From Selaginella tamariscina (Eukaryota; Streptophyta; Lycopodiopsida; Selaginellales; Selaginellaceae): a stretch of DNA of 64,000 bases. Both the position numbers and the translations under genes were made by a program. Shown here one piece after another: positions 7,005 through 62,709 of the stretch. Under the pieces are notes generated by a model. That model did no database searches. It saw only the letters and a list, made by a program, of their open reading frames with translations, and had not been told where the DNA came from. The first letter of the stretch is position 1. Every line of letters begins with the position of its first letter. The stretch is from contig PUQB01000131.1 in the NCBI GenBank assembly GCA_003024785.1, forward strand, positions 124,001 to 188,000. The letters are read 5' to 3'.

Positions 7005-7995
7005 TCTTAAGTTGTTTAACTTTTGAACATGTTCACATCTCTAAAGAAAACACTCTCTAACCAAGTGTGCGTACTAACACACTCAATGATGACACCCGAC
7101 TCCCCTTGAGTAGATGCTCAAGGCTTAATAGCCAAGCACACCTCACAATCTTAGAGGGCGTGCCTTGCATTGTAACGTGTGTTATTTTGCCTAGTGTCAC
7201 ATGTTCATGTGACATATTTCCCAAAATGTAGACTAGCCTATGAAGTCAAGATTTACACTTGGTGGTGATTTAGGAACATAATAAAAAAAACTTATCAACC
7301 AAGATCCCATGAATAAGAATATGATATGTATGAACAAACAGGCATTGTATACTGAAAGATAGAGAAAGAAATTATATGTCATTGTAACTAAATGGGCATG
7401 ATACATGAAAATAGAAATATAAAATAAATTATTAATTAATACTTAAGTTTTAGTTATATTCTAGACTAAGGGCTAGTACTTAATGAGGACATAAGTGTGC
7501 ATTGTAACTGAACACGAGTGTTTTACCCACGGTTTGATAAGAATACAGATGTGTCTTATTTAATTGCAAGTGTTGCTCTTAGTTTAATGTGGAGGAAAAG
7601 GCTAGAGACATGCCTTAACCTTTGACTAATGGAACATTTAATTCGACAAGACCTCCTAGGTGCAAATTCGTCAATGTTAATAGTAAGTTACTTCAAAGGT
7701 GAAACATACCTTTATTATTTGGAAGTTGAGGTGGCACAATAGAGAGTTGTGCCTTGATGACACAAACTTATGAATAACAAACTCAGTTATGAACCCAAGA
7801 ATTCTTATTACACTTCTTATTTAATATATATGATAGAGCCCCCCATTTCCCCCTCCCCTTTTTCCATGTTTTTTAAAGTGGGCTAGCATAGAATCTCAAT
7901 TTCAATAAGAATATACTTAACGAGTTTAACTTAACTACCTGTTGACCCCTAAATCCTAGGCAACCTCAAGATTAGGTCAATCGTAGATGTAAACT
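7005..7995. mobile_element. Degenerate copy of the 1.7-kb LTR family
   Basis: Stretches here match the solo LTRs at 42,511-44,212 and 45,427-47,121, in the orientation of the second. The shared parts include the GTGTGC...CTCAAGGCTTA region (7,060-7,120), the GGGCTAGTACTTAATGAGGAC region (near 7,470) and the GGAAGTTGAGGTGGCACAA region (near 7,720). It is rearranged, and a fragment resembling the left end of element B sits inside it. An old fossil with many breaks. Confidence 0.65.
7377..7446 (+). repeat. Fragment resembling the left end of element B
   Basis: It reads TTGTAACTAAATGGGCATG followed by ATACATGAAAATAG and AATATAAAATAAATTATTAA, closely matching the first 70 bases of element B (8,540) and B' (56,480). 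LTR-family sequence follows directly. It is either a leftover of a third insertion or the end of a small non-autonomous relative. Confidence 0.7.
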
Positions 7996-8534: not shown

Positions 8535-8539
8535 ATCTA
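8535..8539. repeat. Target-site duplication ATCTA (left)
   Basis: ATCTA lies immediately before the first base of the left terminal repeat. The same five bases follow the last base of the right terminal repeat at 21,871-21,875. The left end was placed independently, by comparing B with B', which share sequence only from the T of TGCACG onward. Confidence 0.8.
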
Positions 8540-8565
8540 TGCACGTTGTAACTAAAGTGGGCATG
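8540..8565 (+). repeat. Left terminal inverted repeat of element B
   Basis: It begins TGCACGTTGTAACTAAAGTG and continues GGCATG. It differs from the reverse complement of the right end by one gap and two substitutions. The same sequence opens B' at 56,480. Confidence 0.85.
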
Positions 8566-8844
8566 ATACGTGAAAATGGGAATATAAAATAAATTACTAA
8601 TTAATACTTAAGTTTTAATTATTAATTAATCATTTAATTAATATGTAATTAAGCCTTAAATATTAATTAATTAATTAATTAATCCTTCAATAACCTTACT
8701 TAGTAAGGAATATTCCTAAAATATCTTAGAATATTCATATTATTCTAAAAATAGTTTACAATAATGAAGAAATACTATCAAACATAATTACAAATGAAAT
8801 CATTTCCTTATCAACATGTTAATTTATTTATAAATACTTTCTTC
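8566..8844. other. Left subterminal region of element B
   Basis: AT-rich, with TTAATTAA runs (near 8,610-8,690) and AGGAATATTCCT / AGAATATTC palindromic motifs (near 8,707-8,735). Similar GAATATTC motifs lie near the right end (21,720-21,780), as expected for subterminal transposase-binding repeats (inference). Confidence 0.6.
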
Positions 8845-10161
8845 CTAACCATACAGAAATCTCCTCATTTTGTCTAAATCATCACTCTCCGGATTAATCA
8901 AATCATTTTGGTCAATATCTTGATGTTGTTGCCACCACCTAACACTCTCACGAATGCAATTGGGAGTTGCCATCCTTGTTAATACATAAGATGTAATAAG
9001 ACCAGGTCTGCATAAAGGCTCATCTAAAAATGACGTTCCTTAAGAATAATATTATAAAGCGCCCGGTTGCTATCCTTCATTTTATAAAATTCAAAATCAC
9101 GAGAAAGAAAAGCTTCAGGAAATGTATGATACGGTGGATACTGCTCAAAAAATTTTCGAGATTCTTCTTTCTGAGGCACGTATCCAAGTAGTTCACTAGC
9201 TCATCCATGATATCGGTATCAGAATATGGATCGAAAGTGATTGGATGAATACAAGCAATGTTTTGGTTGAGCATAGCCTTCTGAGGAGAGTCGTCTACTA
9301 CTAAGATATGTGCATTCTTCATTATCCTTAAGCGACTGATCTCCCCATGAGTCCCAATTATTCTTTCATTCTTGAAGAAGTATGGCTTGCTTTCCTTTCT
9401 TATATTGTGAAATTCGAGAGGTTTATAACACATTCGCTGGTCAAAAATCCAATCTTTACGAATCACCTCTTCTGCAACACTACAATGTTTCTTAAGCAAA
9501 TTCAACAGCGGTGTTAAGTTATGAATCTGCATGCATGACCAAATCCCCACAAGCGCACCCATCTCCTTAAGCTTTTGAAAGAGACGATCCAACCCTGGAC
9601 GAAAAATAATATCATATCGAAATTTACCATGACAAGGAATGAAATCTCCTTGTTTGATTTCTTTTTTCCTATCCTCGGGCCTTTGTCGATGAAGCAGAAC
9701 ACCATTGACATCCAACAACACAATATGGCCATGAGTAACATGAGATAGCGTTGCCTCTTGAATACTTTGCAAATCACTTGTTTGCTCCCTTTCACATTTA
9801 TCCGTTGCCACTATCTCGTTGCCTATCCCTTCATCATTTAATTGTACATCATCCTTACAAGATTCAGATATTGCATGCGCTGAAGAAATTGATTTCGGAA
9901 CTGAAGCCAATAAAAATGATGATGAAAAAACTGAAGTGGCCCCCATGGTAACGATGTTTTGAGCTGCATTATTATCCATTTCCTGCATGAACTCTGTCAT
10001 TCTGACATGTGGCACAAGAAATTGTCGCCAAACCCCTCTCTTACCTCATGCCAATGCTGAAAATCCATGTTCTCAATTGTTTCATTACATCTGCAAAATG
10101 ATAATTAGCTGACCTTAAAATTATCAAGGTATATTATTTACCTTGTTAATGTGTGACCCAT
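8845..10161 (-). CDS. FCP1/NIF-type HAD phosphatase-like protein
   Basis: The proposed start ATG at 10,161 is joined through two short introns (about 10,141-10,091 and 10,044-9,983) to the main frame. HAD motifs: LLDVNGVLLH near 9,720, where the usual DxDx(T/V) reads D-V-N-G-V so the second Asp is Asn; GIWSCM near 9,540; and ILVVDDSPQK near 9,300. FCP1/SCP-type enzymes dephosphorylate proteins such as the RNA polymerase II tail; the Asn change, also known in some plant FCP1-like proteins, puts catalysis in doubt. After about 9,190 coding signal moves to another frame (ELLGYVPQKEESRKFFEQ, then MKDSNRALYNIIL, then RPGLITSYVLTRMATPNC) and ends at a stop at 8,847. That C-terminal part matches nothing I recognise. 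B' keeps the gene at 56,782-58,078. It is the downstream gene of the leftward unit. Confidence 0.75.
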
Positions 10162-10269
10162 GTTTGAACTAAAAGCTTCATTAATCCTTGAGAATTTATT
10201 TTCTGTACAAATATAAACGAAATATACAAAAATGCCTTATGTTACACTCATTTACAACTATTCGTCACT
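10162..10269. other. Short intergenic gap between the two leftward genes
   Basis: Only about 110 bases separate the methyltransferase stop from the proposed phosphatase ATG. A TTTGTACAG acceptor-like site near 10,208 opens a block that stays in frame with the phosphatase ATG, so the downstream gene may have an extra 5' exon or share a transcript with its neighbour. Confidence 0.4.
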
Positions 10270-13200
10270 CTAACAATTCATTAACAATTCTTCTTCGCTA
10301 TTACCTTCTGAGTGAGGCGAAGAAGGTCTAAGCCGCTTGTGAGATGGTTCAAGATCTTCTGCATCTTCTATTGATGTTTCCATGGGTAATGGAGTGTGCA
10401 AATGTTCTGTACTCCTCGAGATAACTTCCGGTCTAATATCTGATTGAAGTTCGTCCTCAGACTCCGACATTGAACCAGATTCGTCTTCAGAGCTATCGCA
10501 CTTATCTGGAGGGAACTTTCTCAAATACTCCTTTATGGATTCGTTGGGGTAGTCAGTTGAGAACCTATCTATCCACTTGTTCAGGTCCTCAACCATGGTC
10601 TTATCCTTTTCAACGGCAAATACACATGTATGCCGAAGGTAACACTCCTTCAAGACGGACCCCCTAGTGCAGTAGTCAAAAACCCACGCATCACTGTGAG
10701 GACCCCTGATCAAGTTGACGATGCTCCGTGCCGCTTGACTTGTGATGTTTGGATAACGTACATTGCCGAATACGTCACTCTCACCTATCGGTGTATCGGA
10801 TGGAGGTTCAGGGCCGTTGGAGTGCAAACAGATGCCTGGCCAGTCATTTGGAAGTTTGAAATTGTTTGGCGCATTCCTAACAACCAAGTGAACAACCGAA
10901 TCAATGCACTTCGGATCAGCATCATTCATATAAAATCCTGTCCAACGATGTTTATTCCTCTTGGCAAAGGAGAAGGCAAAGGTATCGGTGACATGAGCAA
11001 GAATCAAGAAATAAATACCTGAAAACGTAGATATCAGTCAAGAGTGCAAGTATGAATTCAATAATAAATACCTTCTTTGTACATGCTTGCACGGCTAAGT
11101 TTCTCCACCAAATCCTCTAGTGTCCTGTCTGTCGAAGGATTTTTTGACACCCGCCGATCCATCACGAACAATTGAAACGGTTTCCTACAAGCAGTGATGG
11201 TACCCCATAAAGTCTCCGAATCCAACAACAAACATCTGTAGGGCTTGTCGTGATTCGTAGCATCCTCCTTTATAAGGTTCAACTCGGTTCTCCGCTGCTG
11301 AAGGACTGCCATAAGAGAAGGCGTCATCGCAATGTTCTCCTTTTTGGCGTTGGCGTGCAATAGATTCTTGCCCAGATCTTCCGATTGATTCACCCATTCG
11401 ACAAGCATATCATCGTTTGTCACATGCAAATATTTGCTGACCTCTTCGTATGTTGAAGCCGATCCAACCCAGTTTGTGGCAGTGTATTCCCAACCACTCC
11501 TTGAAGTGCCTGACCGTCTTCAACTCCATTGCCTTGAGATGAAAAGGAGAGGTGGGCTGCTGTTGTTAATCTGTAATTTGCCATCAATCACCAAATCAGC
11601 CAAGACTTCCATCTCCTCCATCGTTGTTCCATTTAAAGGCTTCAACCATGTGAGCTTGAAATCGTTGTCTACATCCTTTATAGATTGAACAGACTTAGCC
11701 TTCGGCGTCTTACTGGGTTTCTTTGCAGACTTCTCTGAGGGCTCCACTTCACTTGTCTGCTTCTTCTTCAGTGTTCCTTTTGCAAAGGATTCCATAATCC
11801 CCAACCATTTGGCAAAGATCCTATCCTCGGGACAAGAAATCAACATCATCAAAAAGGATGTTTCCTTCCCGCCCACCTGGGCAAAATCAACTGCTACAAT
11901 TTCTTCAACTCTCTGAGGAAAAAGACAGATTAATATACCGGCGAGATAAATCCCGCCCAAACAATTTGCTTACCCGGTATTCCGCAGATTGTGTATTCCC
12001 TGCGGTAGCTCTTTGTGGTCGCTGAAGAGATTCCCACACGGCTCGCGTGTGTTTGAACTTCTCCCATATTTTGCTGTTGTAGTGGTTGGTGTCTGCAGCG
12101 TCCCATTCCGCCGATAACTTATGGTACTGCTCGATTGTGAGATTCGGCTTCGCTAAAAACGCCGATCTTTTCGTCAGCTTCTCACGGGTATGCTCGGAAA
12201 GTTTTGTTGCCATCGTTCCTTTGTTGTGTTCGTCGAGAAGTCGTTGGGCTGCCGTTATTGTGTGCTGGCCACTAATGATGTAGTACTTAACTGATTTTCT
12301 ATTCTCCGTCTGAACCTTCCTCATTTGTTCCGGTGTTGTGATCCACACTTTGTCAGCGCCTTTGTCTCTCGTAGTATGCGCACAAAACAGCATTATGTGG
12401 AACGGTGTAAGAATTGTCGTCCTTCATCTTCTCCATGAGCTCAGCTACACGTTCCTGATTGAGTGGCCTGTAATTGAAGTTTGGGTTGACGCTGCAATAC
12501 TTAACCCTACACTGGTAAATCCTATCATCCAACATCATTTCCTTGTGGCTTATTGCAGCATGGGATGCCACAGGTGCAGCTGACAAAACGACTAATGATT
12601 TTCTTCTACGATCCGAATCAACATGTGTGATCCCCGATTGATGCTGTTCTAATGTTCTCGGCACACTCTTCCAGCTCCCGAAATTTGCTAAGCAAATTGA
12701 ACGTGATCTGTAAAGAACCTGAGACCAAGCCACCCTCTCAATCTCCTTTATGATGTCGCTGTGTTCTTCTTCAATGTGAAGAGGGACGATTGCTCCACTT
12801 GTGATTTTCTGTATTGTGAAGCAATATCTCCTGACAATACACCTACTCGATGAGTCTGAAGATCTTCGAAGTAGACATCCAGATGGATCCCCTCCATAGA
12901 TGGGCTTTCGTTGAGTTGAAGAAGAACTCCAAGGTCAACATCATTAGTGAACACGTGAACGTCATTATCCACAAGTCGACAAAACCACCCGAAACATTGG
13001 GATGAATGAGGCATATGTGTCGAGCATCGTTCAATCTGGGTTCACAGCATGCTTTCGGATGCTTGACTAGCACACCCACTTTCCATTGTTTTGCTTGTCC
13101 ATGCGATGTGACAGAGGTTAGTTTGACAGCAACCATGGTTGTTCCAATGCGCTTCCCGTTTAGTTTGAAATATGGCCAAGTTGATTCCAGAATCCCCCTG

Positions 13201-13373
13201 CCCATCTCTTCTCCTGCTCTCGTCTTTAATGTCACCTCAATTCCACATCTGAATAAAAATGATTAGTTCAAGCACATATCCGAGTATAACAGATTTTATT
13301 TTAATTCTTACCCAGAATTTGACGACGACTCCATACTAATGACTCGATCTCCTTGTTTAATTAAATCGTCCTT
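10270..13373 (-). CDS. ParB-like / N4-N6 DNA methyltransferase-like protein
   Basis: Reads leftward through short introns at 13,311-13,249, 11,973-11,913 and 11,071-11,019 (53-63 nt). Order: an N-terminal part of unknown type (MESSSNSG..., then a block at about 13,248-12,750); a ParB N-terminal-like domain (RPLNQERVAELMEKMKD near 12,450 and YYIISGQHTITAAQRLLDE near 12,260, matching the family's GxHRxxAA pattern); a Lys-rich linker; then a methyltransferase-like domain. In the last, LLLDSETLW near 11,230 takes the place of DPPY, and WVFDYCTRGSVLKE with VFAVEKD near 10,680-10,610 takes the place of motif I, normally DxFxGxG. A long acidic Ser-rich tail ends at 10,270. Frame changes occur near 13,010 and 12,365; at the latter B' reads straight through. 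ParB-methyltransferase fusions are known from phages and mobile DNA. Activity is uncertain because the key motifs are altered. Confidence 0.65.
11940..11958 (+). repeat. Lone palindrome unit inside an intron
   Basis: GGCGAGATAAATCCCGCCC lies inside the 61-nt intron 11,973-11,913 of the ParB/methyltransferase gene. It is a variant of the unit that forms the two large arrays. B' has a decayed version near 59,736-59,755. Confidence 0.7.
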
Positions 13374-13671
13374 CTGCAAAATAATACACTATGAATACAA
13401 ATCATATAAAAACGCACACACACTTGTATAAACCCGAATATACAAAAATAATACACAGAGAGAAGTAGACGGAATTAACTGTCCAAAGCTCACCTTTGTG
13501 CTAGTAAAGAAAGATAACATTTCGTTTTAAACCACCACAAATGTGAGCTCTGGACAGTTTTACATAGTTTCCTAGCTTTTACTCGAAATATTATGATAAG
13601 ATGATAAAAGTAAATAAAATGAGATATGCAACTTATATATACTAATACACATATATATTCACATGGAAGGT
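13374..13671. other. 3' part of the first intron of the leftward unit
   Basis: It begins at a TTTTGCAG acceptor on the minus strand (13,374-13,381). It contains (CA)n and a pair of imperfect inverted copies, CTGTCCAAAGCTCAC (near 13,480) and GTGAGCTCTGGACAG (near 13,542), about 60 bases apart, that could form a hairpin. The pair is kept in B' near 61,335-61,420. No protein is seen. Confidence 0.5.
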
Positions 13672-14630
13672 GCGGCGGGATTAATCTCGCCACCCTTCAA
13701 TGCCTCCTGAAAGAGTGGGCGGATTAATCTCGCCACCTTTCTGGGAGGCCTTGAACAGGAGTGCGGATTAATCTTGCCACCTTCTCGGTTCGAGAGAACT
13801 GGGCAGGATTTATTTGGCACACCCCTTCAGTGACTCCAGAAGGAGGCGGGATTAATCCCGCCACCATGTAAGGGATGGTTAAATGAATTTCGCCACCCTT
13901 CCCAGTTCTTCCATTGGTATGTTGTAAACCTTCTACGTTCAGACAGAAACGTTTGAGATTGGTCGACTCACCAAGGGAGAAAAAAAGGAAGGGTGGTGGG
14001 ATTCATTCCTCCAAAGGCATTGAAGGCTCGACGGGATTAATCTGCCGCCAGGGCCTTCACTCGTTCTATGCGGCGGGATTAATCCCGCCGGACGCCAATT
14101 CCCGCTCGAAATCGGGCGGGATTAATCCGCCGCTAGGCCCTTTAGGCAGGCCTTTGGTGGCGGGATTAATCCGCCGATTCCGTGCAGGCAGCGGATTATC
14201 CTGCTGCCCCGGCTTCACTTGGGCCTAGGCGGCGGGATTAATCCGCTGCTTATGCATCCCTGCGCGGAATCAGGCGGGATTAATCCGCCACTAGTCCCTT
14301 CAGGCAGGCCAATGGCGGCGGGATAAATCCCGCTGATTCCGCGCAGGGCATGCGTACGCGGCGGATTAATCCCGTCGCCAGGCCCTTCACTCAGGCCTTA
14401 GTCGGCGGGATTAATCCGCCGGACGCCAATGCCTGTGCGGAATCCGGCGGGATTAATCCCGCGCCTAGGCCCTTCATGCAGGCCAATGGCGGCGGGATAA
14501 ATCCGCCCGATTCCGCGCAGGCATGCGTATGCGGCGGGATTAATCCGCCGCTGAGTGGCTAATTATAATGGGCGAGATTAATCCCGCGCTACACACGTCT
14601 ACCATATAGCGGCGGATTATCGCGCTACCA
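13672..14630. repeat. Palindrome array I (GGCGGGATTAATCCCGCC, about 22 units)
   Basis: About 22 copies of a 16-18 bp palindrome, consensus GGCGGGATTAATCCCGCC, are spaced roughly 35-60 bases apart. Many are perfect (13,845; 14,070); others lack one base or carry a substitution. The spacers in the right half share GCAGGC / CCCTTCA blocks, so that half also grew by tandem duplication. The array lies in the proposed first intron (15,094-13,374) of the leftward unit. The unit is too regular and symmetrical to be coding, although short frames run through it. Confidence 0.9.
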
Positions 14631-14639
14631 CACAACACA

Positions 14640-15092
14640 GAGATATATACAGATTATACAGATACTGGTAATAATATATGTATGTATACATAGGTATATA
14701 TATATATATTGTGTATATGTATATGTGTGTATGCGTGTGTGAAACAATAAAATCATACAGATAAACAAACACACACACACATATTTATAGATAAATAAAT
14801 AGAATATATATTATATATCTGTGTGGTGTGTTATGTATATATATTGTGTGTGTATATGTATATGAGTGTGCGTGTGTGCAAGAGATAGAGATCTATAGAA
14901 GAGAGAGAGAGAGAGAGATATATATATATATATATCTGTGTATATATGTATAGAGTGTGCGTGTGTGTGAGAGAGATAGAGATCTAAATTATATTATTAA
15001 GATACACACATATAAATATATATGAATAAAATAATAAATATCACAAATAAACGCAGAGGAGTGTGCGTGTGAGAGAGAGAGAGAGAGTTCTC
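14640..15092. repeat. Tandem AC/AT-rich minisatellite (about 110-130 bp units)
   Basis: Repeated blocks read GTGTGCGTGTGTG, then AGAGATAGA, then an ACACACAC and TATATATA stretch. The matching zone of B' (62,160-62,860) has about six such units. No coding content. Confidence 0.8.
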
Positions 15093-15439
15093 ACCTGTGT
15101 GGAGAGAGAAGGAGATTTCACTGCCGCCGCCGCCGCCTTACAAACCCTAGGAATAACCAAAACCCTAAAAGGAATAGAATATATATTAACCCTAATCAAA
15201 TATTCCTTTTAAGAATATACTTAAACCCTAAAAGAATAACTATAGATTCGCCCTAAACGAATATTCTTTCATTATATTATCAGCGTGTGCGTGTGCGTGG
15301 GTGTATCACATACACCCAAGAATAAATATCATGCAAGGGTTTAACACGTGTGTGTCCATGAGAGTGTTAAAGTTTCACATGCAGCGATACATATAACACA
15401 TAGTTATACACATAGACATACTATATTAGAGAGACAGAG

Positions 15440-16000
15440 TACAGGATCATGTATGGTGTGTATGTATGAGAGAAGAGTGACAATACATATTATGGATCAT
15501 GCATGGTGTGTATGTTTAAGAAAAGAGAGACAGTACATATTTACATGGATCATGCATGGTGTGTATGTATGAGAGAAGAGTGAGAGTGTTAACAAATTAA
15601 ATTCATACACATTGGATATATTAGTACACACATATACATACACGTGTATACACACAGACATACATACATATTACATGTGTAAATTCAATGTAGGGTTTAG
15701 GGTTTAGGGTTAGGATGGATCATGCATGGTGTTTATGTATGAGAGGAGTGAGTGTTATACACAGATATTTATACATATTACATAATATTGTAACATTAGT
15801 ACATATTATGGATCATGATGGTGTGTATGTATGAGAGAAGAGACAGGCTACATATTATGGATCATGATCATGCATGGTGTGTATGTATGAGAAGAGACAG
15901 GCTACATATTATGGATCATGATCATGCATGGTGTGTATGTATGAGAGAAGGGATTATGCATGTGACACTGTGTATGTATGAGAAGAGATAGAGTGTTAAC
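15440..16000. repeat. Minisatellite of about 50-55 bp (GGATCATGCATGGTGTGTATG)
   Basis: About eight copies of a unit containing GATCATGCATGGTGTGTATG and then TATGAGAGAAGAG. They are interrupted near 15,590-15,760 by AC-rich sequence and a telomere-like stretch. B' has four or five units at 63,325-63,515. Confidence 0.85.
15692..15714 (+). repeat. Plant telomere-like motif (TTTAGGG)n
   Basis: Two full TTTAGGG units plus a partial one stand alone inside the minisatellite zone. Too short for a telomere; an interstitial telomere-like motif. Confidence 0.7.
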
Positions 16001-17304
16001 AAATGAAAATCGTACACATTGCATATATTATATTAGTACACATATATACATACACACGTGTATACACACAGACATACATATATATTACATGTGTAAATTC
16101 AATGTGTTACATACACACACACTGAGTACATATAGATCATACATGCGTTGAACATGATGTTTTTCAATAAAGAAGCAACATATAATTTCTCAAGTTTGGT
16201 TTAGGGCAATGTGCATGTGTGTGCATATGTGTCTCTGTAAGTGCTTCTAATGTGTGCACATGTATGATTGTGTTTATATATAATATGTGCAAAACAAACA
16301 TCGAATAATTAAGAAAATAATATAATATACACACTATGAACATATTTTAAATTATACATAATAATATATGATTTTATCTAATATATAGCCATATATAGTT
16401 TTAATAATATATATTAATTTAATATTGATAATAAGGTTTAACACTAGAATATTCTTGAAATAATAACAAATTAATTGAGAAAATCCCATTAATATATACG
16501 AATAATTACTGAGATAATTAATAAGACTAATTTAATTATGATAATATTTAATATTGGAATATTCTTTGAATATTAAGAAAATAATAAAGAATATCCCATT
16601 AATAGTAGGAAATGTAAATTAATTACTCGAGTAATTAAGAAAATAATAATAATAAACAGACTATGAATATATTTTAAATGATACATAATAATATATCAAT
16701 TTATTTATTGTATTATGTATATATATATAATATAAACTTAATAATATATACTTGAATATTAAGAATGTAGAATAATTACAAAAATTTCGTAATATTAAAC
16801 AGCTTGAAGCACTTGAATGACATTAAATGCAATTTTAAAACACTCATTGGAATTGGAGAGTATATATGTCAGACTGTCGGTTATTTGTTTCAACTCATCT
16901 TAAATTTTCTTTTCTGTTATTTCAAAAATTTGAATTTCTGACATAAGTATTATCAGTCTGACATGTAAATTTGAAAATACATTTAATTTCCCACTCAAAT
17001 TCAGATCTGGTTCTTTCTCCGGCAAGGGTTTCTTCATTTTCACTCTTCAGATTTTTTTTTCTTCTTAGTGATCAGCTCAGGAGCGACATTAAATTGGGTG
17101 CGCTATTGTTTATAGGAAAGCACGGCGCCTTCAGTGCTGTTTACAAGTAAGTATTATAAACAAATTTAGATATATTTATAAAGATTCACTCTCTTACATT
17201 CTCTCTTAAATTTTAGAATTTAGGGATTTAGGAATGCATTAGGATTAATATATTCTGTTAGGGATTTATCCCGTTTAAATATACTTTTAACTTAGTATTC
17301 TCGG

Positions 17305-18103
17305 TTAGCCGGGGCGGCGGGATTAATCCGGCCATTTTTTTTCGCCTCTTTGAAGAGGTGGCGGGATTAATCCCGCCACCATCTCTTTCATAGCTATGGC
17401 AGAATTAGTTCGGGCAATGCTTCTCCGCCTCTTAAAAAGAGCGGCGAGATTAATCCGCCGATAACTCTCTCAACTGATAATGATTTACTTGAATTTATTA
17501 GAAAGAGTTGTCGGCGGGATTAATCTCGCCAACCATTTTAGGAGGCAGAGAAGGGGTGGCGGGATTAATCTCGCCACTACTTCCCTGTTTTAAATATTTG
17601 TGGGCAGAATTCATCCCGAATCTCTTTGAAATCATAGTTTCGGAGAGAGTTGTGGGCGGGATTAATCCCGCCGCTTATTCCCCGTCGTCAGAGTTGTGGG
17701 CGGGATTAATCCCCGCCTATTCTCCGTCTTCAGTGTTGTGGGCGGGATTAATCCCGCCCCCTCTTCCTCGTCGGAGGAATTTGCGGCGGGATTAATCCCG
17801 CCGACTCTCACAGACGAGGAAGATCCGGCGGCGGGATTAATCCCGCCGTACTTCCTAGTCGGAGGGAGCCCGGCGGGATTAATCCCGCCGCTACTTCCTC
17901 GTCGGAGGGAGCCCGCGGCGGGATTAATCCCGCCGTACTTCTCGTGAGGGAGCCCGCGGCGGATTAATCCGCCGCTCCTCTCGAGGGTAGAGTCGGCGGG
18001 ATTAATCCCGCCGACTCTCTCCGATGGGGTAGAGTCGGCGGCGGGATTAATCCCGCCGACTCACTCTGAAGGGGTAGAGTCTGCGGCGGGATTAATCCCG
18101 CCC
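17305..18103. repeat. Palindrome array II (GGCGGGATTAATCCCGCC, about 17 units)
   Basis: About 17 units of the same palindrome as array I, spaced 40-50 bases. The right half is almost perfect (17,784 to 18,103), with spacers built from TACTTCCTCGTCGGAGGGAG or ACTCTCTCCGATGGGGTAG types, which shows recent tandem growth. The array lies in the proposed first intron (17,147-18,247) of the transposase unit and mirrors array I in the opposite unit. Confidence 0.92.
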
Positions 18104-18247
18104 ATCAGTTATATTAATAAAGCATGAGATATTTTTTATATATAATTATGTATTATTGCACATGCATATTATTAAGCAACTGCAGTTATGATTTCTTACA
18201 AATATTGCATAAACAGATATCATAAATAACACAATTTTTATGTGCAG

Positions 18248-21200
18248 GACAATATGTATAATACTGGAGATAAAGTATGTCTTCTTCGGAACAACGAGAT
18301 AGTTGGCACTGGAACTGTGGAAGTTCGAGATGATAATGCATCATGTCACAATATTGCCCAAGGATCTTGTGTGTACGTATGGGTGAACACCATTTTCAAG
18401 CATGTTGAGGTTCCTGGAATGGAATTTGAGGAGGGTTCTCCTGTATTGTGGAATTTGGATGAAGTCAAGGCTGACACAGAATATACAGAGTCACAAACAA
18501 ACAGTAGCACGAGTTTTCCAGATGATGGCTTGCCTGCTGTGATGGATGAGGTGATTCTCTTTCTTCATGAGATTGAGGTTGGGAGAGGCATCATCACAGC
18601 TATAAATCCAATGGAAGCAGTGTCAGAAGAGAAACTAGGGTCCGACTTCGTGGGTGTAGTTGTGACAGAGGTTTCACCTAATGGCACTTTGCATCCTGGA
18701 TCCCTCGTGAGGTGGCGAACATCTGAATTAAGACGGCAAGATGGTTCAACATATTCTGGGTTGGATTTCAATAATAACAACCCGGAAGAACAACTCATAT
18801 TTGAAGAGGTTCCTTGCATTGGTCCTATTAAAGAAAAAGGCGATTCATGGGTTGCAGATCTTCCCCTACATGTTTCAGCAAGAGGATGAAGATGGATCCT
18901 ACATCTTCCGAAAGTGTTACGAGCATTTCCACGATTGACTGCTGCAAGAAGAAGTGTTGTCAGATGGCAGACCGGAATGAAATTACCCAATGTAGACATG
19001 TCTTTCGTACGCTCACCCAAAAGCAAAGGCATGAGTTTGTATATGCTGCACTAACTGGGTGTATTGATGGAATGGCTTCGGACACAGGTTATCAGAGTAC
19101 ATCCATGGTATTTAATAAGGTGGCCATCTGCTTCAAAGCTTGGTACAGTATATATGGGATCCAAAGACCACGTTCTACCGTCGGAGGGATGAGTGGTTAG
19201 ATGGAGCGCGAACCTCAGTACATGGGAACACTGGCTTGGTCAAAACCCGCTCTCACATTATGGCAGCCATAGAGATACTCAAGGCTTTTGTGGAAGCAAA
19301 TGCAGACAGGATGCCTCACAAATGCCGAACCACAAATGCAGGGGTCAGGGAAAATCTCAAGGTTTTGCCTTCGATCTACACTCAATTGAAGCTGTGTGAA
19401 CATGTGAACAAGTGCCTCAGCTTGATGGGGCTGCAAGCAATCTGCACTGGTACCTTCAACAACATATGGAATACTCATTTTAAGGATGTGGAGATTGCAA
19501 AACACTCTAGCTTTTCCAAGTGTGACACTTGTACATCATTGAAGGCTGCAGAGGCTTGTGCAAAAACCTTGGTGGAGATCACTGCCATTCAAAAGAAGAT
19601 GGAGGCCCACATGATTGCGCAACAAACTTGCCGGTCTCAGTACTATGCACACCGCATGCTTTCTGTGTCACGCCCATCAGAGTACCTGTGCTTGATCCAT
19701 GACAAGATGGATCATTCAAAGACCAGCATTCCAAAGCTCGTTGCAACACCAAAGTGCCTTGGAAATGTCATGAAACTTCCGATTTCATTGACAGGTGTGC
19801 TAACACATGGACACGGTTGTGAATCATATGGACACTTTTCACTTCCACATTGGTCTAGCGACTCCAATTTCACTATTGGGTCGTTGGCCATGTGTTTCAG
19901 AAACCTTGAAGCCCACTCACAGACAAGTCCTATCGGTGATCTCAAAGTGAAGAAACAACACCTTCAACCTTTACATAATGCTCTCATGAACACGTCTGCA
20001 CTTGAGGCTACTTGGGAATATGAGAGGCATTGTCAGCAACCTGCACAAAAAACAGATGGCCCTGTTGAGAGTTCAGGTTCAGTGGAGGGATCTAGCTCAA
20101 ATAGTGTACATGTGTCCTCAACATCAAATAAGCTTCCTCGTCATTTGCTTTTACAGATGGATAATTGTGCAGGCGAGAACAAAAATAGGTAAATCATTTT
20201 ACTTAAGGGTTTCTCAAGCTCATACTTACTTTTATTTTCTAGATATGTGCTAGCATACTTGTCAATGCTTGTTGCCAAAGGTGTGTTTGAAACAATCACG
20301 CTCAGTTTTCTTATGGTTGGTCACACTCATGAAGATATTGATGCGTTCTTCAGCAAGGTCTCCAACTCTACAAAAAGGACAAGTGCACTTACCTTACCGC
20401 ATATGATGAATCTTTTTGAAAATTGCATCTCCAAAAAAAGTTGTGCTTTGCTTTGTGACTGAGGTGCCAGACTTCAAAAAATTTCTCAAGGAGTATATAA
20501 AAGAGGGGAGTGATTCTTTAGTTGGTCACCTTGTGCCGCTACAATTCTTTTTCTCCATACGAGATGGTATACCTATTATGCAGTACAAGTTACGGCCATC
20601 AGAGCAGGAGTGGTTACCGAAAGAGGGGTTAATGCTCTTCAAAAGTGGAGAGAATGGAAAGCCACTTCTCCCAGAAGGACAACCAGACCCTATTCCATTG
20701 AGTGCCCAGCTCAAGGAACAAGAGGTTATTATTGATGGCATCAAAAAATATGTGGCATGGGTTCAAAAATCGATGCCAAAGAATTCTGATAAGGCAACTG
20801 GTTACTCAGAACTATATAAGCATGTGGTTGACTATTGGGAGACTGTTGTTCGAGAGTTGGAAGGGCCTACTGTCACAAGTACAGAATTGCAACACCCTTT
20901 TTGGCCTAAAACAAGGTGGCGAGAGGAGATTGAAATGACATCACTGAGCACAGGACATAGAAGCCAGTAGTGATGTGGAAGTGCAAACCCCACACTTTGT
21001 TGGACAAAGGAACCAAAAACCTAAAGCATACTTTGATTGCTGCCAGGATCTTCAAAAACTAATGATGGTTCTCATTACTCCAGATGCGTCATATAATCAG
21101 CCTATTTGGATGGGTCAAATTATCGACACACCTGAAGTAATCACAAAAAATAGTATTGTTAAGGTTGCATGGTTCAAACCACAAAAAAGGCGACACGAGA

Positions 21201-21370
21201 AGGAGAGCGAAAGATATAATGGATGCCTAGAGAAAACATGGTCTCCCAATCAAAAAGACCCAGCATGTTTTATAAATGTTAAATCCATTCGATATGGGTG
21301 GATGTCAAGAAGCGTTGATAAAGTCACGATTAACAAAACTGCAAGGGAATGTATGTTTTCTGAAGCTTAA
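18248..21370 (+). CDS. DDE-type transposase (DUF7869-like) of element B
   Basis: The first coding exon follows a TGTGCAG acceptor; the likely Met is at 18,254. The N-terminal part holds two similar blocks (GDKVCLLRNNEIVGTGTVEV and EVILFLHEIEVGRGIITAI) resembling, from memory, the DUF8039-like domain of plant transposon proteins. A Cys-rich CCKKKCC segment follows, then a region ending VHGNTGLVKTR and a CDTC pair. The catalytic core shows IHDKMD near 19,700, DNCAGENKNR near 20,160 and FLMVGHTHEDIDAFF near 20,310, which fits an RNase H-fold D-D-E/D triad. A 54-nt GT-AG intron (20,189-20,242) sits exactly between DNCAGENKN and its natural continuation RYVLAYLSMLV. The C-terminal block near 21,100-21,360 is BAH/chromo-like in style. 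Frame changes near 18,880, 19,170, 20,430 (an A7 run) and 20,947 mean this copy is damaged or the assembly has indels. It should cut and join the element's ends. Confidence 0.82.
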
Positions 21371-21845
21371 AGCAATTACAAAATTATAAAATATCATATA
21401 TTTTATTCATAATTATTATAAACTCTTTAATAATAGTACCAAATTGTTTACTTAACTATATAAATTTAAAAAATGATATGGAAGATTGACTATATTATTA
21501 TAGGATTTTATATATTATTTATTACTACAAATTTTTAATTAATAATGTTATATTTAAATATTAATATTTTAATAACAACATCAATATTTATATAATGTAC
21601 CTCTTATGCTCTTCCTTAATTGTTATATTAGGCAATATATTATATAATTTAATACCTTCTACTTTTATAATGTTATTAATTTTTGTTCAATGAATGCTAT
21701 AATTTATTAAAGGGTAGAATACAAAATAGAATATTCTAAAGAATATTCTATTTTCAAACATATATTCTAAAGAATATTCCTTTAATATTAGAAAATGCTA
21801 ATTAAATAGCTAAAATTGCTAATTATTAGGAAATGGGACTATAGC
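21371..21845. other. Right subterminal region of element B
   Basis: AT-rich 3' flank of the transposase gene. Near 21,720-21,785 it has three AGAATATTCT-type palindromes, matching the GAATATTC motifs of the left subterminal region. No other gene is seen. Confidence 0.6.
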
Positions 21846-21870
21846 CATGCCCATTTTAGTTACACTTGCA
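21846..21870 (-). repeat. Right terminal inverted repeat of element B
   Basis: Reverse-complemented it begins TGCAAGTGTAACTAAAATGG and continues GGCATG, matching the left end apart from one gap and two substitutions. ATCTA follows at once (21,871-21,875). Confidence 0.85.
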
Positions 21871-21875
21871 ATCTA
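21871..21875. repeat. Target-site duplication ATCTA (right)
   Basis: Perfect match to 8,535-8,539 on the other side of the element. Confidence 0.8.
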
Positions 21876-23163: not shown

Positions 23164-26100
23164 TTATCCCCCTTCGATGACGAGCACCGCGCGTCACTGG
23201 TCCAGGCTTTGCAAGATATCGATGATGGAACTCGGCAACAAGATTATGAGCATGAAAAAGATGAGCAGCATGCTCCCAAGTGCGTTCGCTGGATGGATAA
23301 TCGACCCAATCCACGAAATAGTGAAGCTGACCATGAACAAGCTTGGAGTCAAGAATTGCAGCAACCTCGAACTCAGGTTCACCAGTAACTATAACCGGAG
23401 GAGGTGGTGGATAAGGCTCCAACAAAGAAACATTGAACACGAGATGGATCTGGATGGTTGGTGGAAGCTCGAGACGAAACGTCACATCAGAGAGTCTCTC
23501 GATGATGAAAAATGGGCCCAAGCGTTGATAGTCCAGCTTGTCATAGGGACGTGTGGTTGGCCAATGACGCCGGAGGAGCCACACTTGGTCACCAACTGTG
23601 AATGCTGAAGGAGAGGAACGGGAACGATCAGCAGCTTGTTGTTGCAAATCCTAAGCGCATTGAAGATGATGCTGCACTTCTTCATGGACATGTTGGAGAT
23701 GCTCAACACGATCATCGGCAATAGTGGTAAGGCCAGGAACCACGGGCAAGCTGTAGGACCAGCAAGGATGAACACCAAAGAACGCAAAAAATGGCAACAC
23801 ACCTATGGATGAGTGTGTTGTGTTGTTGTACGCGAACTCGGCAGTAGGAAGAAGATCGACCCAATCATCTTGCAGATGAGAAATGAAACATCAGAGATAT
23901 TGTTCTAGAGTCTTTGTTGTACGCGAACTTGGCAACAGGAAGGAGATCGACCCAATCATCTTGCAGATGAGAAATAAAACCTGAAGATATTGTTTCAAAG
24001 TCTAAATCGTGCGCTCCATTTGGCCATCTGTTTCAGGATGATGTGCAGTAGATAGCTTCCCGGTGATACGTAGCCGATCCAGGAATCTTCACCAGAATGC
24101 CGAAGTGAACTGGGGACCTAGATTAGTGACAAGTTCATCAGGAAGACCATGAAGATGGAACACCTCCCGGTACACCAGATCTGCAGCATTAGGACCCGAA
24201 CATGTTTTTGTTACAAACAAAGTGCGCCATCTTAGAGAACCGATCAAAATGACTAGGACAGCATCAAACCCTTAGAAGGTGGTAAATCATGAGGAAATCC
24301 ATGGTGATGGAGACCATGGCTGCTGAGCAATAGGAAGAGGCTGTAGTAGTCCAACCGGTCGATGACAGGAAGCTTTGTACGCTGGCACGTGTCACAAGAT
24401 CGCACAAATTTCTCAACATACATGCAAGCCGAGGCACCAGAACACACGTTGTACTGCTCGATCGTCTTCCGAATGCCAAAATGTCCCAGCTGTGTTGTCA
24501 TGGCAGTGTTGGACAACTTGCAACCTCAGTTCTCCGTCCGGAACATAGATTTGGATGTGGTGGTACAACAACCCATTATGAAGATGGAAAGCAGCATAAT
24601 CTCGTAGTTGTGACCCTGAAACAATGGTGAACTCGTCGAACATGTGCAAGGACATCACGAGCAAACTCGTCTTGAGAGATTTTCGATTAGATCCAAAAAC
24701 AAGTGTCAACTGGAGCAGAAGAACGGGAAAGCGCGTTTACCAAAACTGTCGAGCTCAGGATGACTTGTTCTTGTTGATCAAATCGGATTTCACCTGGTAC
24801 TGGAGCTAGGTAATTGCGACGAGATAAGCATCTGCTTTGCCATTTAGACGACCGGGACGATGAATAATCACGTATCGAACCGGGACAAAGACTGTGCCCA
24901 TCGCGCCTGACACCATTGAGAACTCGTGCTGTTGCTAGTACTGGAGGTTTTTGATCACAATACACCTTAACCACATGCGGGGAACCTTCAAGGAATCTGT
25001 GCCACTCCTCAAAGGCATCGACGATCGCCAACAGCTCCTTGTTGTAGACATCATAGTTGATCTCAGGTGCAGTGAACTTGCGAGGAATGAAAGCAATGGG
25101 ATGGAGAAGATGATCTGGACCTTCTGGGACAACACTCCACCAATGGCGAAGTCAGAGGCATCAGCTTCCACAAATATGGCTTCGCAGGGTCAGGATTAAG
25201 AACAGGTGCCAGGTGAACGCCTTCTTTAGGAACTCGAACGCCTCCTCAGCCTCAGAGGACCAGACAAATGGAACATCCTTGCCAGTCAACTTCGTCAATG
25301 GCAATGCAATCTTGGAGAAATCCCGAACGAAACGTCGATAGAAGTTCGCAAACCCGAGGAAACATCGAACATCACGAACATTTGATGGTCTCTCCCACTC
25401 CAATACAGTCCGGACTTTTGCAGGATCCATGTGAACACCTTCAGCTGAAATGATGTACCCCAGGAACTCGACAGACTGCTGACTGAAAGAGCACTTCTCC
25501 AACTTGGCAAACAAGTGGTGCTTCCGGAGCTCTCCAAGACTAACCGTACATGCCGTTCGTGTTCTTCTCGAGTCTTGGAAAATATCAGGATGTCGTCTAG
25601 GTACATGATGACAAACAAATCCAAGAAGTCCCGGAAAATATCGTTAGCCATGTGCTGGAACACAGCAGGTGCATTTGTCAGGCCGAACGGCATTACTACG
25701 TACTCGAAATGTCCGTAGCGTGTACGGAAAGCTGTTTTCCACTCGTCCCCTTCTCGAATTCGGATGAGATTGTACGCTCCTCTTAAATCGATCTTTGTGA
25801 AGTACGGGCACCAGAAAGACGTTCGAGCATGTCGGAGACGAGCGGAGAGGATACTTGTTTGGAATGGTGACCTTATTCAGATCTCGGTAGTCCACCACGA
25901 GCCGGAGACTTCCATCCTTCTTGGAAACAAAGAATACTGGGCACCAGCCGGTGATCGAATGACGGATAAATCCGGTGACAAGATTCTCCTCAATGTATTT
26001 CCTCAATGTCTCCAACTCTGTTGGTGAGAGACCGTAAATGGGACCGGAGGACGGCTGCTTACCCTCAACGAGATCGATAGGACAGTCGTACTCACGGTGC

Positions 26101-30189: not shown

Positions 30190-32537
30190 TTTTCTAAAGT
30201 TAAAGATGCACACTTGATCATAAGTCTTTCCCTATTTGAATGCTATTGCCAAAATTGATATTGAACCACACCATTCCATCACTCAAGTTTCTTGTACACA
30301 TTGCCTCAATAATCGAGAACTCAAGAAGTTTGCCCTGTTAGACACTGGTGCAAATGCATGCTTCATGGATGACACTTTTGTAACTCAGCATGGCATTTCG
30401 GTGGTGAAGTTGAAGTGTGCAATTCTTGTAAAGGTTGCAGATGGTCGTTTAATTGCTTCTGGCGCAGTTACTCATGCTACCACACCTCTCTCTTGCACTC
30501 ATGGTGCATTTAACTATTCGATTTCTTTCAACTTGATCAAGACTCGAACGACTCCCATCATTTTGGGCATGCCATGGTTCATGGTTGCAAATTCTCAGAT
30601 CGATTGGAGATCCAGGACACTCACGTTTTTCTCTTCGGCAGCTAGGATTAATTCTGTACCTTCTTACGTGCAGGATATGATCTTAGTGTCTGAGGTAGCA
30701 CAAGCTACAGGATTGACCATGCCTGTTCCTGTATCAGTGTTGAAGATTCCTCCTCGATAGGATTCACCTTATGTCAGTTCATTAACACATCCACAGGCTC
30801 TCTCCACTCCTATAAGTTCACAGATTCTGTACAGGGTTCTTCCAATCCTATATCAGTGTCAAAGGTTCCTCCTCAACAGGTTCCACCTCCTATTAGTTTG
30901 TTAGCACATTCGCAAGCTCTCCTCACTCTTGTGCATTCACAGACTTTTGTACAGGATTCTTCTAATTCTGTACACTCGTCAACATCAGCACATGTTTTCC
31001 CCAATCCTGCTTCTTTTCATTACTCTGCTTCTGTTCCATCCCCCAAGATCCTTCCTCTTTTTCATTCATAGCTCCCTCCTCCTCTCCGAGTTCTTACCAC
31101 TATTATGCATGAACTTGCCACTAATCATGCCTTTTCATCTCTTTGCTTTTCAAGTAACTCCTACGTCCTTTTTACCTCTCCTGTTTTTCAATCTCCTTCT
31201 CCTCCTCCTACTTTTTCCTTGTCATCTAAGTATCACTCCTTCTAAGACATTTTTAATAAGCACAAGGCTGTAGTTCTTCCTATTCACAGGTCCTACGATT
31301 GTCCTATCGATCTTACGGAGGGAAGACTCCACCATTTAGACCAATTTATGCCCTGTCACCTACAGAATTGAAGGTTCTTCGCCAGTACATCGAGGATAAT
31401 TTGGCATCCAGCTTCATTCATCACTCAAGTCCCACGTAGGAGCACCTATCTTCTTTGTCAAGAAGAAAGATGGAAGATTGCGTTGGTTGTGGACTACAGG
31501 GGTTTGAATTAAGTCATCATCCGGAACCGGTACCATTGCCATTGATCTCGGAACTTCTCGATCAGCTACGAGGAGCAAAGGTGTTCACGAAGATCAACTT
31601 ACGAGGGCCTACAATCTTGTACGGATTTGTCCAGGCGATAAGTGGAAGACTGCCTTTTGTACAAGGTATGGACATTTTGAATACACGATGATGCCTTTCG
31701 AACTTACAAATGCCTTAGCCATGTTCCAACACATGGTGAACAACATCTTTCACGACTTCTTGGACCAGTTTGTGGTGATTTACCTCGATGATATTTGATT
31801 TTCTTTAAGGATCATGCAGCACATGACAAGCATGTACGACTAGTTCTACATAAGCTTTACAAGCATGGCCTATATACAAAGTTGGAAAAGTGTTTTTTTG
31901 ACAGGGATACTGTGGAGTTCTTGGGGTACATCATCTCTCCTGCTGGCATTTCCATGGACATGCATAAGGCGAAAACTATTGTGAAGTGGGAGAGGCTCAA
32001 GTTTGTATGAGACGTACAATGTTTCATTAGCTTTGCAAACTTCTACAGGCGATTCATACAGGACTTCTCCAAGCGTGTACTTCCACTCACGAAACTCACC
32101 AAGTGCACAGAGGATTTTCATGATCTGATAAGGCGGAACATGGATTCATAGCACTCAAGGACGCCTTCACGACAGCTCCGATTTTAGTACATTCTGATTC
32201 TTCTCGTCCCTTCTTCGTTGAAGCAGATGCTTCGGACTTTGCAGTAGGTTCTATCTTATCACAAGCTGGAAAAAACAAGTTACTCCATCCTGTACCTTTC
32301 ACTCTCGTAAGTTCTTTTCAGCGGAGATCAATTACGAGATTTTTTGACAAGGAACTCAAGGCCATTGTGGATCGTTGGAGGAGTGGTGACACTTCATGGA
32401 AGATGCTGCACATCCTGTACAAGTTCTTACGGATCACAAGAACCTAGAGGTTTTTTAAACGGCTCAAGTTCCCAGTCAGTGACAGGCTAGGTGGGTGGAA
32501 TTCTTATCATGTTTTGATTTTGTCATTGTCTACAGGC
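30190..32537 (+). mobile_element. Outer chromovirus fossil, left part
   Basis: A Ty3 chromovirus whose 5' part (LTR and most of gag) is absent. Visible are a retropepsin (LLDTGANACFMDD near 30,335), a Pro/Ser-rich linker, reverse transcriptase (about 31,450-31,970) and the start of RNase H. It is cut at 32,537 by a nested member of the same family and resumes at 38,635. Broken many times. Confidence 0.85.
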
Positions 32538-33112: not shown

Positions 33113-36100
33113 GTTTGATAGTAACTGCTTTCATAGCTCTCCAATTTCTAGTTACTTTTTTTTTCCCTTGATTCTTCTCATTCATTTTCCTCCTTTTTTT
33201 CTTTCATAGATCATGGCTGATTTTGAGCAATTTCAACGCGAGCACCAAATGTTGCTTCATGAGCTAGCCACTTTGCATCAAGTGGTCACAGATCTGCAAG
33301 GTTCCACCAACGCGGCGCATGCAACTGCTGATGCATCCTCTAAGGCCGCTGCGCAGGCTTCTCTTAAGCATCCATGGTTTCCTCTCCATTGAACTTTTCT
33401 TTGGAGCCGAAGATCAGCATGCTAGAAAAGTTCAGTGGCAATCGCGCCGATTTCAAAGGTTCTTGAATCAGATCCGGCTCTTGATTCGTATGCAACCACG
33501 CCGCTACTCGACTGTGCAAAAAGGTTGGCCTTTTGGCATCCTTATTAGTTGGATCTCCACGGGCTTGGGTTGCCCTTGCTGAAGCGTGACGACCCATTGA
33601 TGGAAGACTTTGAAGGATTCGTGGCTGCCTTTGAAGCCTACTTTGGAGATTTCAATAAGTACCGTTCCGCATGCACGAAGTTACGCAAGCTCACACAAGG
33701 ATCCTGACCAATTTCTGTCTATGCATCCGAATTTCAGCAACTTTGCATGAACATTTCATCGGACGAGACTGCATTGATCAAACATTTCCGTTTTGGGTTG
33801 AGGGATGACATGAAGGACCTTCTTCTTACATTACCGAATGCCCAAACATTAGCAGAGATCATGACAGGCCATTCACTGCGACAACCGTTTGTTCAAGCAT
33901 CGCTAGGAAAAATCCCCGTCAGCAGTTCTTGCAAGCCAATCCTACAGCTGTAGTACATGTTCCTATGACACCTTCCGGAGTAGTTTATGGAAGTTGAGAA
34001 ATACAAGCGTGGCTCACTTTCTGCTGCTGAGAAGCAATGTTGCTACTGTGAGAACCTATGCTTGTATTGTGGTGAAGCAGGACACAAGGTGGCAAAATGT
34101 CTTATTAAAGCCAGGAAGTTCAAGATGCGTGAATGAAGCTGAAGTTCAGTCGGAAAACTTCAATGTCCACTTCGTCTAGAAGCCGTGAAATTGGACGTAG
34201 GTGCATGCTCCATTGGTGCTGCTCATACCATTTCATCACTCAAGTTTCTTGTACACATTCGTCTCAATAACGAGAGCTCAAGGAGTTTGCCCTGTTAGAC
34301 ATTGGTGCAATTGCATGTTCATGGATGACACTTTTGCAACACAGCATGGCATTCCGATGGTGAAGTTGAAGCGTGCAGTTCCTGTAAAGGTTGCAGATGG
34401 TTGTCTGATTGCTTTTGGCGCAATTACCCATGCTACCACATCTTCTTGCAGTCATGGCGCATTCAACTGTTCGATTTCGTTCAACTTGATCAAGACTCGG
34501 TCGACTCCCATCGTTTTGGGCATGCCATGGTTCATGGTTGCAAATCCTCAGATTGACTGGAGGTCTAAGACGCTCACATTTTCCTCTCCGGCAGCCAGGA
34601 TCCTTGTACCTTCCTGCGTGCAGGATACGTCCTTAGTGTCTGAGGTAGTATAAGCTACAGGATTGACCGTGCATGTTCATGTATAGTGTTGAAGATTCCT
34701 CCTTGATAGGATTCACCTCCTATCAGTCCATCAACACATCTGCAGGTTCTCTCCACTCCTATAAGTTCACGGATTCCTATACAAGGTTTTCCAATCCTGT
34801 ATCAGTGTCAAAGGTTCCTCTCAACATGATCCACCTCCTGTTGGTTCGTTAGCACACTTGCAGGCTCTCCTCACTGTGCATCCACAGACTTCTGTACAAG
34901 ATTCTTCCAATTCTGTACACTTGTCAACATCCGCATAGGTTTTCCCAATCCTGCCTCTTTTTATTACTCTGCTTCTGTTCCACCCCCCAAGATTCTTTTT
35001 TTTTCAGTCACAGCTCCCTCCTTCTTCTCTCCAATTCTTACCACTACTATGCATGAACTTGCCACTGATCCTGCTCCTTTTCATTTTTGCTTTTCAAGTA
35101 GCTCCTACGTCCTCTTCTACCTTTCCTATTTGACTCTCCTTTTTTCAATTTCCTTCTCCTACTCCTTCTCCTTCTCCTACTTCTTCCCTGCCATTCAAGT
35201 ATCACTCCTTTCAGGACATTCTAACAAGCACAAGGCTGTAGTTCTTCTTGTTCACAGGTCTTACGACTGTCCTATCGATCTTGCACTCACCATTCGAACC
35301 GATTTATGCATTGTCACCTATAGAATTGGAGGTTCTTCACAGTACATGAGGACAACTTGGCATCCGGCTTCATTTGTCACTCAAAGTCCCCTGTAGGAGC
35401 ACCTATCTTCTTTGTCAAGAAGAAAGATGAGAGTTTACGTTTGGTTGTGGACTACAGGGGTTTGAATCAAGTCACCATCCGGAACCGATACCCATGCCAT
35501 TGATTCGGAACTTCTCGATCGGCTATGAGGAGTAAAGGTGTTCACCAAGTTGACTTACGAGAAGCCTACAATCTTGTATGGATTCGTCCAGGCGATGAGT
35601 GGAAGACTGCCTTTTGTACAAGGTATGGACATTTCGAGTACACGGTGATGCCTTTCGGACTTACCAATGCCCCAGCCGTGTTTCAACACATGGTAAACGA
35701 CATCTTTCGTGATTTCTTGGACCAGTTTGTGGTGATTTACCTTGATGACATTTTGATTTTCTTCAAGAACCAGGCGGCACACGATAAGCATGTACGACTA
35801 GTTTTACAGAGGCTTCGCGAGCATGGCCTTTATGCGAAGTAGGAGAAGTGTTTTTTTGACAAGGATATATGGAGTTCTTGGGCTACATCGTCTCTCTTGC
35901 TAGCATTTTCATAGACATGCATAAGGTGAAGACTATCGTGGAGTGGGAGAGGCCCAAGTCGGTATGAGACGTACAATGTTTCCTTGGCTTTGCAAACTTC
36001 TACATGCGATTCATACAGGACTTTTCCAAGTGCGTACTTCCACTCACAGAACTCACCAAGTGCACAGGAGGTTTTTCTTGGTCCAACAAGGAGGAACATG

Positions 36101-55465: not shown

Positions 55466-55469
55466 CCGT

Positions 55470-56479: not shown

Positions 56480-56781
56480 TGCACGTTGTAACTAAAATGG
56501 GCATGATACATGAAAATGGGAATATAAAATAAATTACTAATTAATACTTAAGTTTTAATTATTAATTAATATTTAATTAATATAATTAAGCCTTAAATAT
56601 TAATTAATTAAAAATTAATCCTTCAATAACCTTACTTAGTAAGGAATATTCCTAAAATATCTTAGAATATTCATATTATTCTTCTAAAAATAGTTTACAA
56701 TAATTAAAAAATACTATCAAACATAATTACAAATGAAATCATTTCCTTATCAACATGTTAATTTTTTATAAATACTTTTTC

Positions 56782-58078: not shown

Positions 58079-58184
58079 GTTTGAACTAAAAGCTTCATTA
58101 ATCCTTGAGAATTTATTTTCTGTACAAATATAAAAAAATATACAAAAATGCCTTATGTTACACTCATTTACAACTATTCATTAA

Positions 58185-61100: not shown

Positions 61101-61200
61101 AGCACATATTCGAGTATAACAGATTTTATATAATTCTTACCCAGAATTTGACGATGACTCCATAGTAATGACTGAATCTCCTTATTTGATCAAATCGTCC
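58185..61200 (-). pseudogene. ParB / methyltransferase-like gene, decayed copy in B'
   Basis: Counterpart of 10,270-13,373. The ParB-like YYIINGQHTITAAQRLLDE block near 60,060 is preserved, and near 60,160 this copy reads through in one frame (VLCPYYERKKG) where copy B is shifted. Near 60,780-60,840 it also holds about 60 bases missing from copy B (QCLVPFNVTFSNPEVASYD), so copy B has an internal deletion. The methyltransferase-like part (58,560-58,990) has lost several short pieces. Confidence 0.72.
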
Positions 61201-62145: not shown

Positions 62146-62159
62146 AAATATTTATATGC

Positions 62160-62270: not shown

Positions 62271-62316
<46 letters not shown>

Positions 62317-62669: not shown

Positions 62670-62709
<40 letters not shown>

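Follow-up and report, generated by a model that had tools for sequence, protein, structure and literature searches.

A stretch of 64,000 nucleotides of Selaginella tamariscina contig PUQB01000131.1 (hereafter the window, to which all positions refer) contains a genuine DNA transposon: a full-length but damaged copy, a portion of an older one and a fragment. The complete element reads ATGCACG...TTGCAT and is flanked by a 4-bp target-site duplication; in the window copy the final T is missing. We consider it probable that this is a large element of the cut-and-paste kind that multiplied recently and most likely belongs to Sola, with a DUF7869 transposase and a second gene whose product would act as a regulator on internal palindrome arrays. 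An earlier note, made from the letters of the window alone, had proposed a DNA transposon of eukaryotes whose ends are defined, which was borne out.

The ends of the window copy form an inverted repeat of about 25 bases (TGCACGTTGTAACTAAAGTGGGCATG and, as reverse complement, TGCAAGTGTAACTAAAATGGGCATG), as the note had described; in the family the terminal inverted repeats are about 27 bp long. The matching subterminal GAATATTC palindromes that it listed are also present, and its left end is correct, as a second copy in the window begins with the same end beside a different flank. This second copy is about 95% identical to the first over the first 3.1 kb; its left end is preceded by T instead of A and its right end is diverged, so it yields no duplication. 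The note had further reported a direct repeat of ATCTA outside the ends. ATCTA is indeed found on both sides (8535-8539 and 21871-21875), but the duplication itself is the 4-bp ATCT, which looks like ATCTA in a copy without the terminal T.

The host assembly (300.7 Mb, 1391 contigs) was searched with the left end and with the right end of another copy, the latter without flank. These searches returned 798 and 735 first-look candidates respectively, which are not equal to verified copies, and 40 were scored for each end. Twenty-two distinct left ends, retrieved by searching with that very end, start at the same base, and their flanks differ except in two same-flank pairs; a more diverged left end in locus L055 reads TATACG. 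The same insertion with its flanks was seen on the contig pairs L006/L007 (C811, C786) and L017/L019 (C1183, C585), which are either duplicated regions or assembly haplotypes.

Twelve other copies, with lengths of about 13.1-14.95 kb by arithmetic, were read at both ends. Ten have A...T termini and a 4-bp duplication, that is 9 of 11 independent insertions, since C811 and C786 share flanks. The duplicated word is ATCT in C1133, C1119, C1044, C929, C811 and C786, TTCT in C1043 and C113, TACT in C1248 and AACT in C1207. The two exceptions are C402, which has ATATA on both sides and lacks the terminal T like the window copy, and C269, which has no duplication. As the copies read at both ends were ranked by their likeness to the ATCTA flank, these duplications are uninformative on target choice. 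A T follows TTGCA in all 30 right ends fetched from the 40 scored with the flank-free query, and of the four bases after it, the first is A or T in 26 of the 30, the second in 25 and the third and fourth in 23 each.

For nine insertions (C1133, C1119, C1044, C929, C811, C1043, C113, C1248 and C1207) the two flanks were joined by script at the shared 4-bp word, and the joined sites were searched for in the window and in the loci fetched. The C113 insertion has four related empty places, two in the window and one each in L037 and L073, in which TTCT stands once, without the A or T of the termini; the C1207 insertion has one, with a single AACT. Three of these five places thus fall inside the window. 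The joined site of C1044 gave a match of 73% only and was not used as an empty site, and the other six insertions matched nothing but their own flanks (in the case of C811, the flanks of its twin C786). The window also has a retrotransposon gag frame (PF03732) at 26530-28023 with several neighbouring repeats at 86-92%, and repeats in this part of the window contain the related empty sites of two insertions located elsewhere in the genome.

The earlier note had claimed a 5-bp duplication, which would agree with ATCTA on both sides of the window copy, ATATA on both sides of C402 and the matching fifth base of C1133. However, C1133 is the only one of the ten A...T copies with ATCTA on both sides, the fifth flank base being mismatched in the other nine, and the T at all 30 right ends fetched and the single 4-bp words of the C113 and C1207 empty sites speak against it as well. 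Together these observations refute a 5-bp duplication, to which we give hardly any credence.

The family is large, young and recently multiplied. End matches are 99-100% identical in all those scored, which are 40 of the 798 left and 40 of the 735 right candidates, and by arithmetic some 700 copies of about 14 kb would make up about 10 Mb, or about 3% of the genome. Matches to a 342-amino acid piece of the catalytic exon are 99-100% identical and free of stops in the 118 that were scored, a favourable sample, being the best of 6133 candidates. Open frames around this piece extend up to 671 amino acids, a length that assembly gaps can inflate (an effect that was observed). Two probable nested insertions were observed: in L026 (C445) a left end lies beside internal sequence of the element's own family, and in L074 (C102) a right end adjoins an inverted right end, as if inside the inverted repeat of another copy. 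The element had also been called autonomous in type; neither window copy is an intact autonomous one, since the frames of the transposase and of the second gene are broken by frameshifts in the first and only short frames are left in the second.

The transposase of the window matches the DUF7869 profile (E 2.5e-12), the family that the earlier note had named from its motifs. Residues D515, D518, D676, D716 and D718 are invariant among 22 aligned homologues. The predicted model of a homologue suggests an RNase H-like core, for which the nearest solved fold listed is that of Mos1. Ratios of nonsynonymous to synonymous substitution rates (dN/dS) against six copies are 0.12-0.20 (p 1.2e-9 to 2.0e-7 under a neutral model), in comparisons that all include the window copy and hence are not independent; the transposase is under purifying selection. 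Its closest named relatives are from liverworts and moss. The protein might have chromatin-reading ends, in the form of two Tudor-like domains before the catalytic core and a BAH-like domain after it.

Several named groups differ in their termini and duplications. IS3EU has TA..TA termini and usually 6-bp duplications (PMC10045372), as against ATGCA...TGCAT and 4 bp here; Tc1/mariner duplicates TA (PMC10741241), as against ATCT, TTCT, TACT and AACT, even though Mos1 is still the nearest fold; Kolobok and piggyBac duplicate TTAA specifically (PMC9587614), as against varied 4-bp words and right flanks. By eye, the C/DxxH signature of hAT, P, MuDR, Kolobok and Dada, which sits between the second D and the last acidic residue (PMC9587614), was not seen between D676 and D716 of protein P0003, nor was the C(2)C of the EnSpm-Mirage-Chapaev-Transib (CMCT) signature, C(2)C plus H(3-4)H between the second D and the last E (PMC12730594), in the same 39 residues. 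Ginger1 and Ginger2 have a transposase like the gypsy integrase and duplications of 4 or 4-5 bp (PMC10045372).

Sola is a recognised class that has received little study. Its elements, in the accounts available to us, make 4-bp duplications and encode a DDD transposase, with hosts that include Physcomitrella (PMC10741241, PMC9033089) and bivalves (PMC10294476); the duplications of amoebozoan Sola2 are AT-rich (PMC3627910). The features in common with our element are the 4-bp duplications (9 of 11 independent insertions, and empty sites for two), terminal inverted repeats (about 27 bp, against at least 11 bp in Sola) and moss and bivalve hosts (PMC10741241, PMC9033089, PMC3627910, PMC10294476). 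A DDD trio, as in Sola, would lie among the five aspartates that are invariant in 22 homologues. Most Sola elements are 2-9 kb long and some exceed 15 kb, versus 13-15 kb here, in a comparison made by description. The remark of the earlier note that it knew no named superfamily with this set of genes and 5-bp duplications loses force once the duplication is 4 bp, as in Sola.

The closest published layout is that of a 21.5-kb Sola1 family of Ectocarpus, in which a ParB-like and DNA methyltransferase gene lies opposite the transposase (PMC12477816, 2025). The second product of Sola1-1_Ec32 is a ParB and DNA methyltransferase protein of 1104 amino acids, and such accessory proteins combine a ParB domain with an N4/N6 methyltransferase domain (PMC12477816). 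Both elements are giant DNA transposons in which transposase and second gene lie on opposite strands; they differ in length (21.5 kb versus about 13-15 kb), in host and in the second protein, that of Selaginella giving no ParB or methyltransferase profile match. The FCP1-like gene and the palindrome arrays belong to the Selaginella element, and the description of Sola1-1_Ec32 available to us makes no mention of them. The same authors describe a Gypsy element and state that, to their knowledge, no transposable element with a Tudor domain had been reported before it (PMC12477816). Fungal DNA transposons with TET/JBP dioxygenases likewise have a gene for the control of DNA modification beside the transposase, but they belong to other transposase superfamilies and carry another enzyme (PMC12730594). 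As far as these sources describe, the gene set repeats a published layout, while the phosphatase-like gene, the palindrome arrays and the chromatin-reading ends that the transposase may have look new.

Alternatively, DUF7869 elements may form a separate, unnamed superfamily that merely has its 4-bp duplication in common with Sola. The literature searched gave no mention of DUF7869, Mos1 is the nearest structural neighbour, and none of the 22 homologues has a strong match to another transposase family (Transposase_23 in 2 of 22, best E 6.6e-4). We know of no solved Sola structure, which also counts in favour of this alternative. We nevertheless consider it unlikely, as the duplication length, the candidate DDD letters, the moss and bivalve hosts and the opposed putative ParB-methyltransferase gene fit what is printed of Sola1 and Sola2. 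By analogy, the element is probably best filed as Sola type.

The second gene runs leftward in several exons. It is better preserved in L082 and L083 than in the window copy, though not fully intact in either as fetched. Its dN/dS is 0.24-0.25 against L010, L015 and L083 (p 8.3e-11 to 7.4e-10), 0.49 against L081 (p 6.5e-4) and 0.42, not significant, against L080; the gene is under purifying selection. The earlier note had read its product as a ParB-methyltransferase. Neither domain was detected with the Pfam, PHROGs and NCBIfam profiles, the best PHROGs match having an E value of 0.017 and no assigned function, and no credible relative was found in PDB sequences, phage records and two protein searches, one of them of 5.8 billion proteins, in which shared exact 5-residue words are required and distant relatives can escape. 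The predicted structure of a 219-amino acid piece was unusable. By eye, GQHTITAAQRLL resembles ParB-type proteins and DYCTRGSVL...FAVEKD a methyltransferase motif region; a resemblance at the level of motifs is likewise seen in DYCTRGSVLKECYLRHTCVFAVEKD.

The failure to find relatives in all these searches would also be expected of a fast-evolving accessory DNA-binding or structural protein unrelated to either domain. En/Spm (CACTA) of maize provides a model for such a protein: its second protein, TnpA, presumably acts on numerous short repeats that lie inside the element close to the promoter, as proposed here, although En/Spm has 3-bp duplications, CACTA ends and a different transposase. We regard this explanation as possible but doubtful, in view of the motif resemblances, the published Sola1 parallel and the distant relatives that an exact-word search may miss. 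As the searches gave no credible relative, the second protein is treated as a ParB-methyltransferase by analogy only; the Sola1 parallel makes that identity likely, more so than the searches alone would suggest.

The start of this gene and that of the divergent transposase gene each lie beside an array of the 18-bp palindrome GGCGGGATTAATCCCGCC and its variants, with 12 exact palindromes in the two arrays of the window element. The sequence GATTAATC occurs 32 times in this element, versus about 0.4 expected, and once in the window outside both copies. Exact 18-mers number 27, 22, 27, 10 and 17 in the 10-kb loci L009, L011, L012, L014 and L015, 12 in L013 (half of which is N) and 3 in L010; there are 2 in L016, the second window copy, and 0-6 in shorter loci above 4 kb, which contain little or none of the array region. 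Both window copies also have a minisatellite of about 50 bp, with a unit around GGATCATGCATGGTGTGTATGTATGAGAGAAGAG, at 15440-15946 and 63331-63513.

The FCP1-like phosphatase of the earlier note was confirmed by a PF03031 match (E 3.1e-12, 46.9 bits versus a cut-off of 21.8), while the dullard-like model of NCBIfam gave an E value of only 0.0033, far under its cut-off. In what we take to be the DxDx site the second aspartate is replaced by N (DVNGV), both in the window and in L082. Six copy comparisons gave dN/dS values of 0.27-0.82, none significant, and so nothing in them shows selection keeping this gene.

In the working that we propose, the transposase would bind the 27-bp inverted ends, perhaps with the help of the subterminal GAATATTC palindromes. 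It would then cut out the element as ATGCA...TGCAT and, by a staggered cut of 4 bp, place it in AT-rich target sites. Two transcription units diverge from the central region, the transposase rightward and the second gene, followed by the phosphatase-like gene, leftward. The second protein, as a putative ParB-type DNA binder, would act on the arrays and thereby control or protect the promoters of the element, a role modelled on a printed proposal for the ParB-methyltransferases of algal transposons. More speculatively, and in our estimate rather improbably, DUF7869 transposases might be a lineage with chromatin-reading modules at both ends, and in this element such a transposase and a self-encoded DNA-binding regulator, with its own 18-bp operator arrays next to both promoters, might constitute a self-contained anti-silencing or dosage circuit behind the several hundred near-identical copies of 13-15 kb.

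Table 1 Features of the transposon and related sequences in the window
Feature	Position	Strand	Basis or remark
Solo left-end fragment of the family, short	7376..7457 (about)	+	sequence comparison
Left target-site duplication, ATCT	8535..8538	none	length of 4 bp according to other copies and empty sites
Transposon, ATGCACG...TTGCA	8539..21870	none	first base A at 8539; terminal T of most other copies missing
Left terminal inverted repeat	8539..8565	+	sequence and left ends of other copies
Two subterminal GAATATTC palindromes	8708..8736	none	starts 8708, 8729
322-amino acid open frame, NIF/FCP1-like phosphatase domain (residues 108-293)	9077..10045	-	PF03031
Second gene, multi-exon	10273..13335	-	start inferred; frames interrupted in window copy; ParB/methyltransferase-like motifs by eye only
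Array of GGCGGGATTAATCCCGCC and variants	13674..14588	none	beside second-gene start
Second array of GGCGGGATTAATCCCGCC and variants	17316..18102	none	beside transposase-gene start
DUF7869 transposase gene	18254..21370	+	profile match; frameshifts in window copy
HDKMD motif	19698-19712	+	transposase
DNCAGENKN motif	from 20160	+	transposase
Transposase intron	20190-20243	+	inferred from GT...AG
GHTHEDID motif	20319-20342	+	transposase
Three subterminal GAATATTC palindromes	21729..21779	none	starts 21729, 21741, 21772
Right terminal inverted repeat	21846..21870	-	an internal A and the terminal T, both found in most other copies, are missing
Right target-site duplication, ATCT	21871..21874	none	sequence and flanks of other copies
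Related empty site, C1207 insertion	24570..24760	none	single AACT; joined-flank comparison
Related empty site, C113 insertion	30932..31130	none	single TTCT; joined-flank comparison
Second related empty site, C113 insertion	34877..35076	none	single TTCT; joined-flank comparison
Second, more diverged copy, left part only	56480..64000	+	same left end, different flank

The element lies within a region of about 43 kb flanked by an inverted repeat of about 6 kb (1-6276 and 49896-56073, largely 99-100% identical in blocks), which either arose by recent inverted duplication or is an effect of the assembly. In its left arm, the two longest frames have no Pfam match.

Reports from algae and fungi already describe giant DNA transposons that encode DNA-modifying or regulatory proteins of their own. 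The Selaginella family offers a tractable case, as it is very young and many-copied: its transposase exons are open, its ends are defined, it has empty sites, and its putative regulator is under selection and has candidate binding arrays. DUF7869, a domain without assigned function, would gain a job, and the second gene and the repeated palindromes have the look of a control system built into the element.
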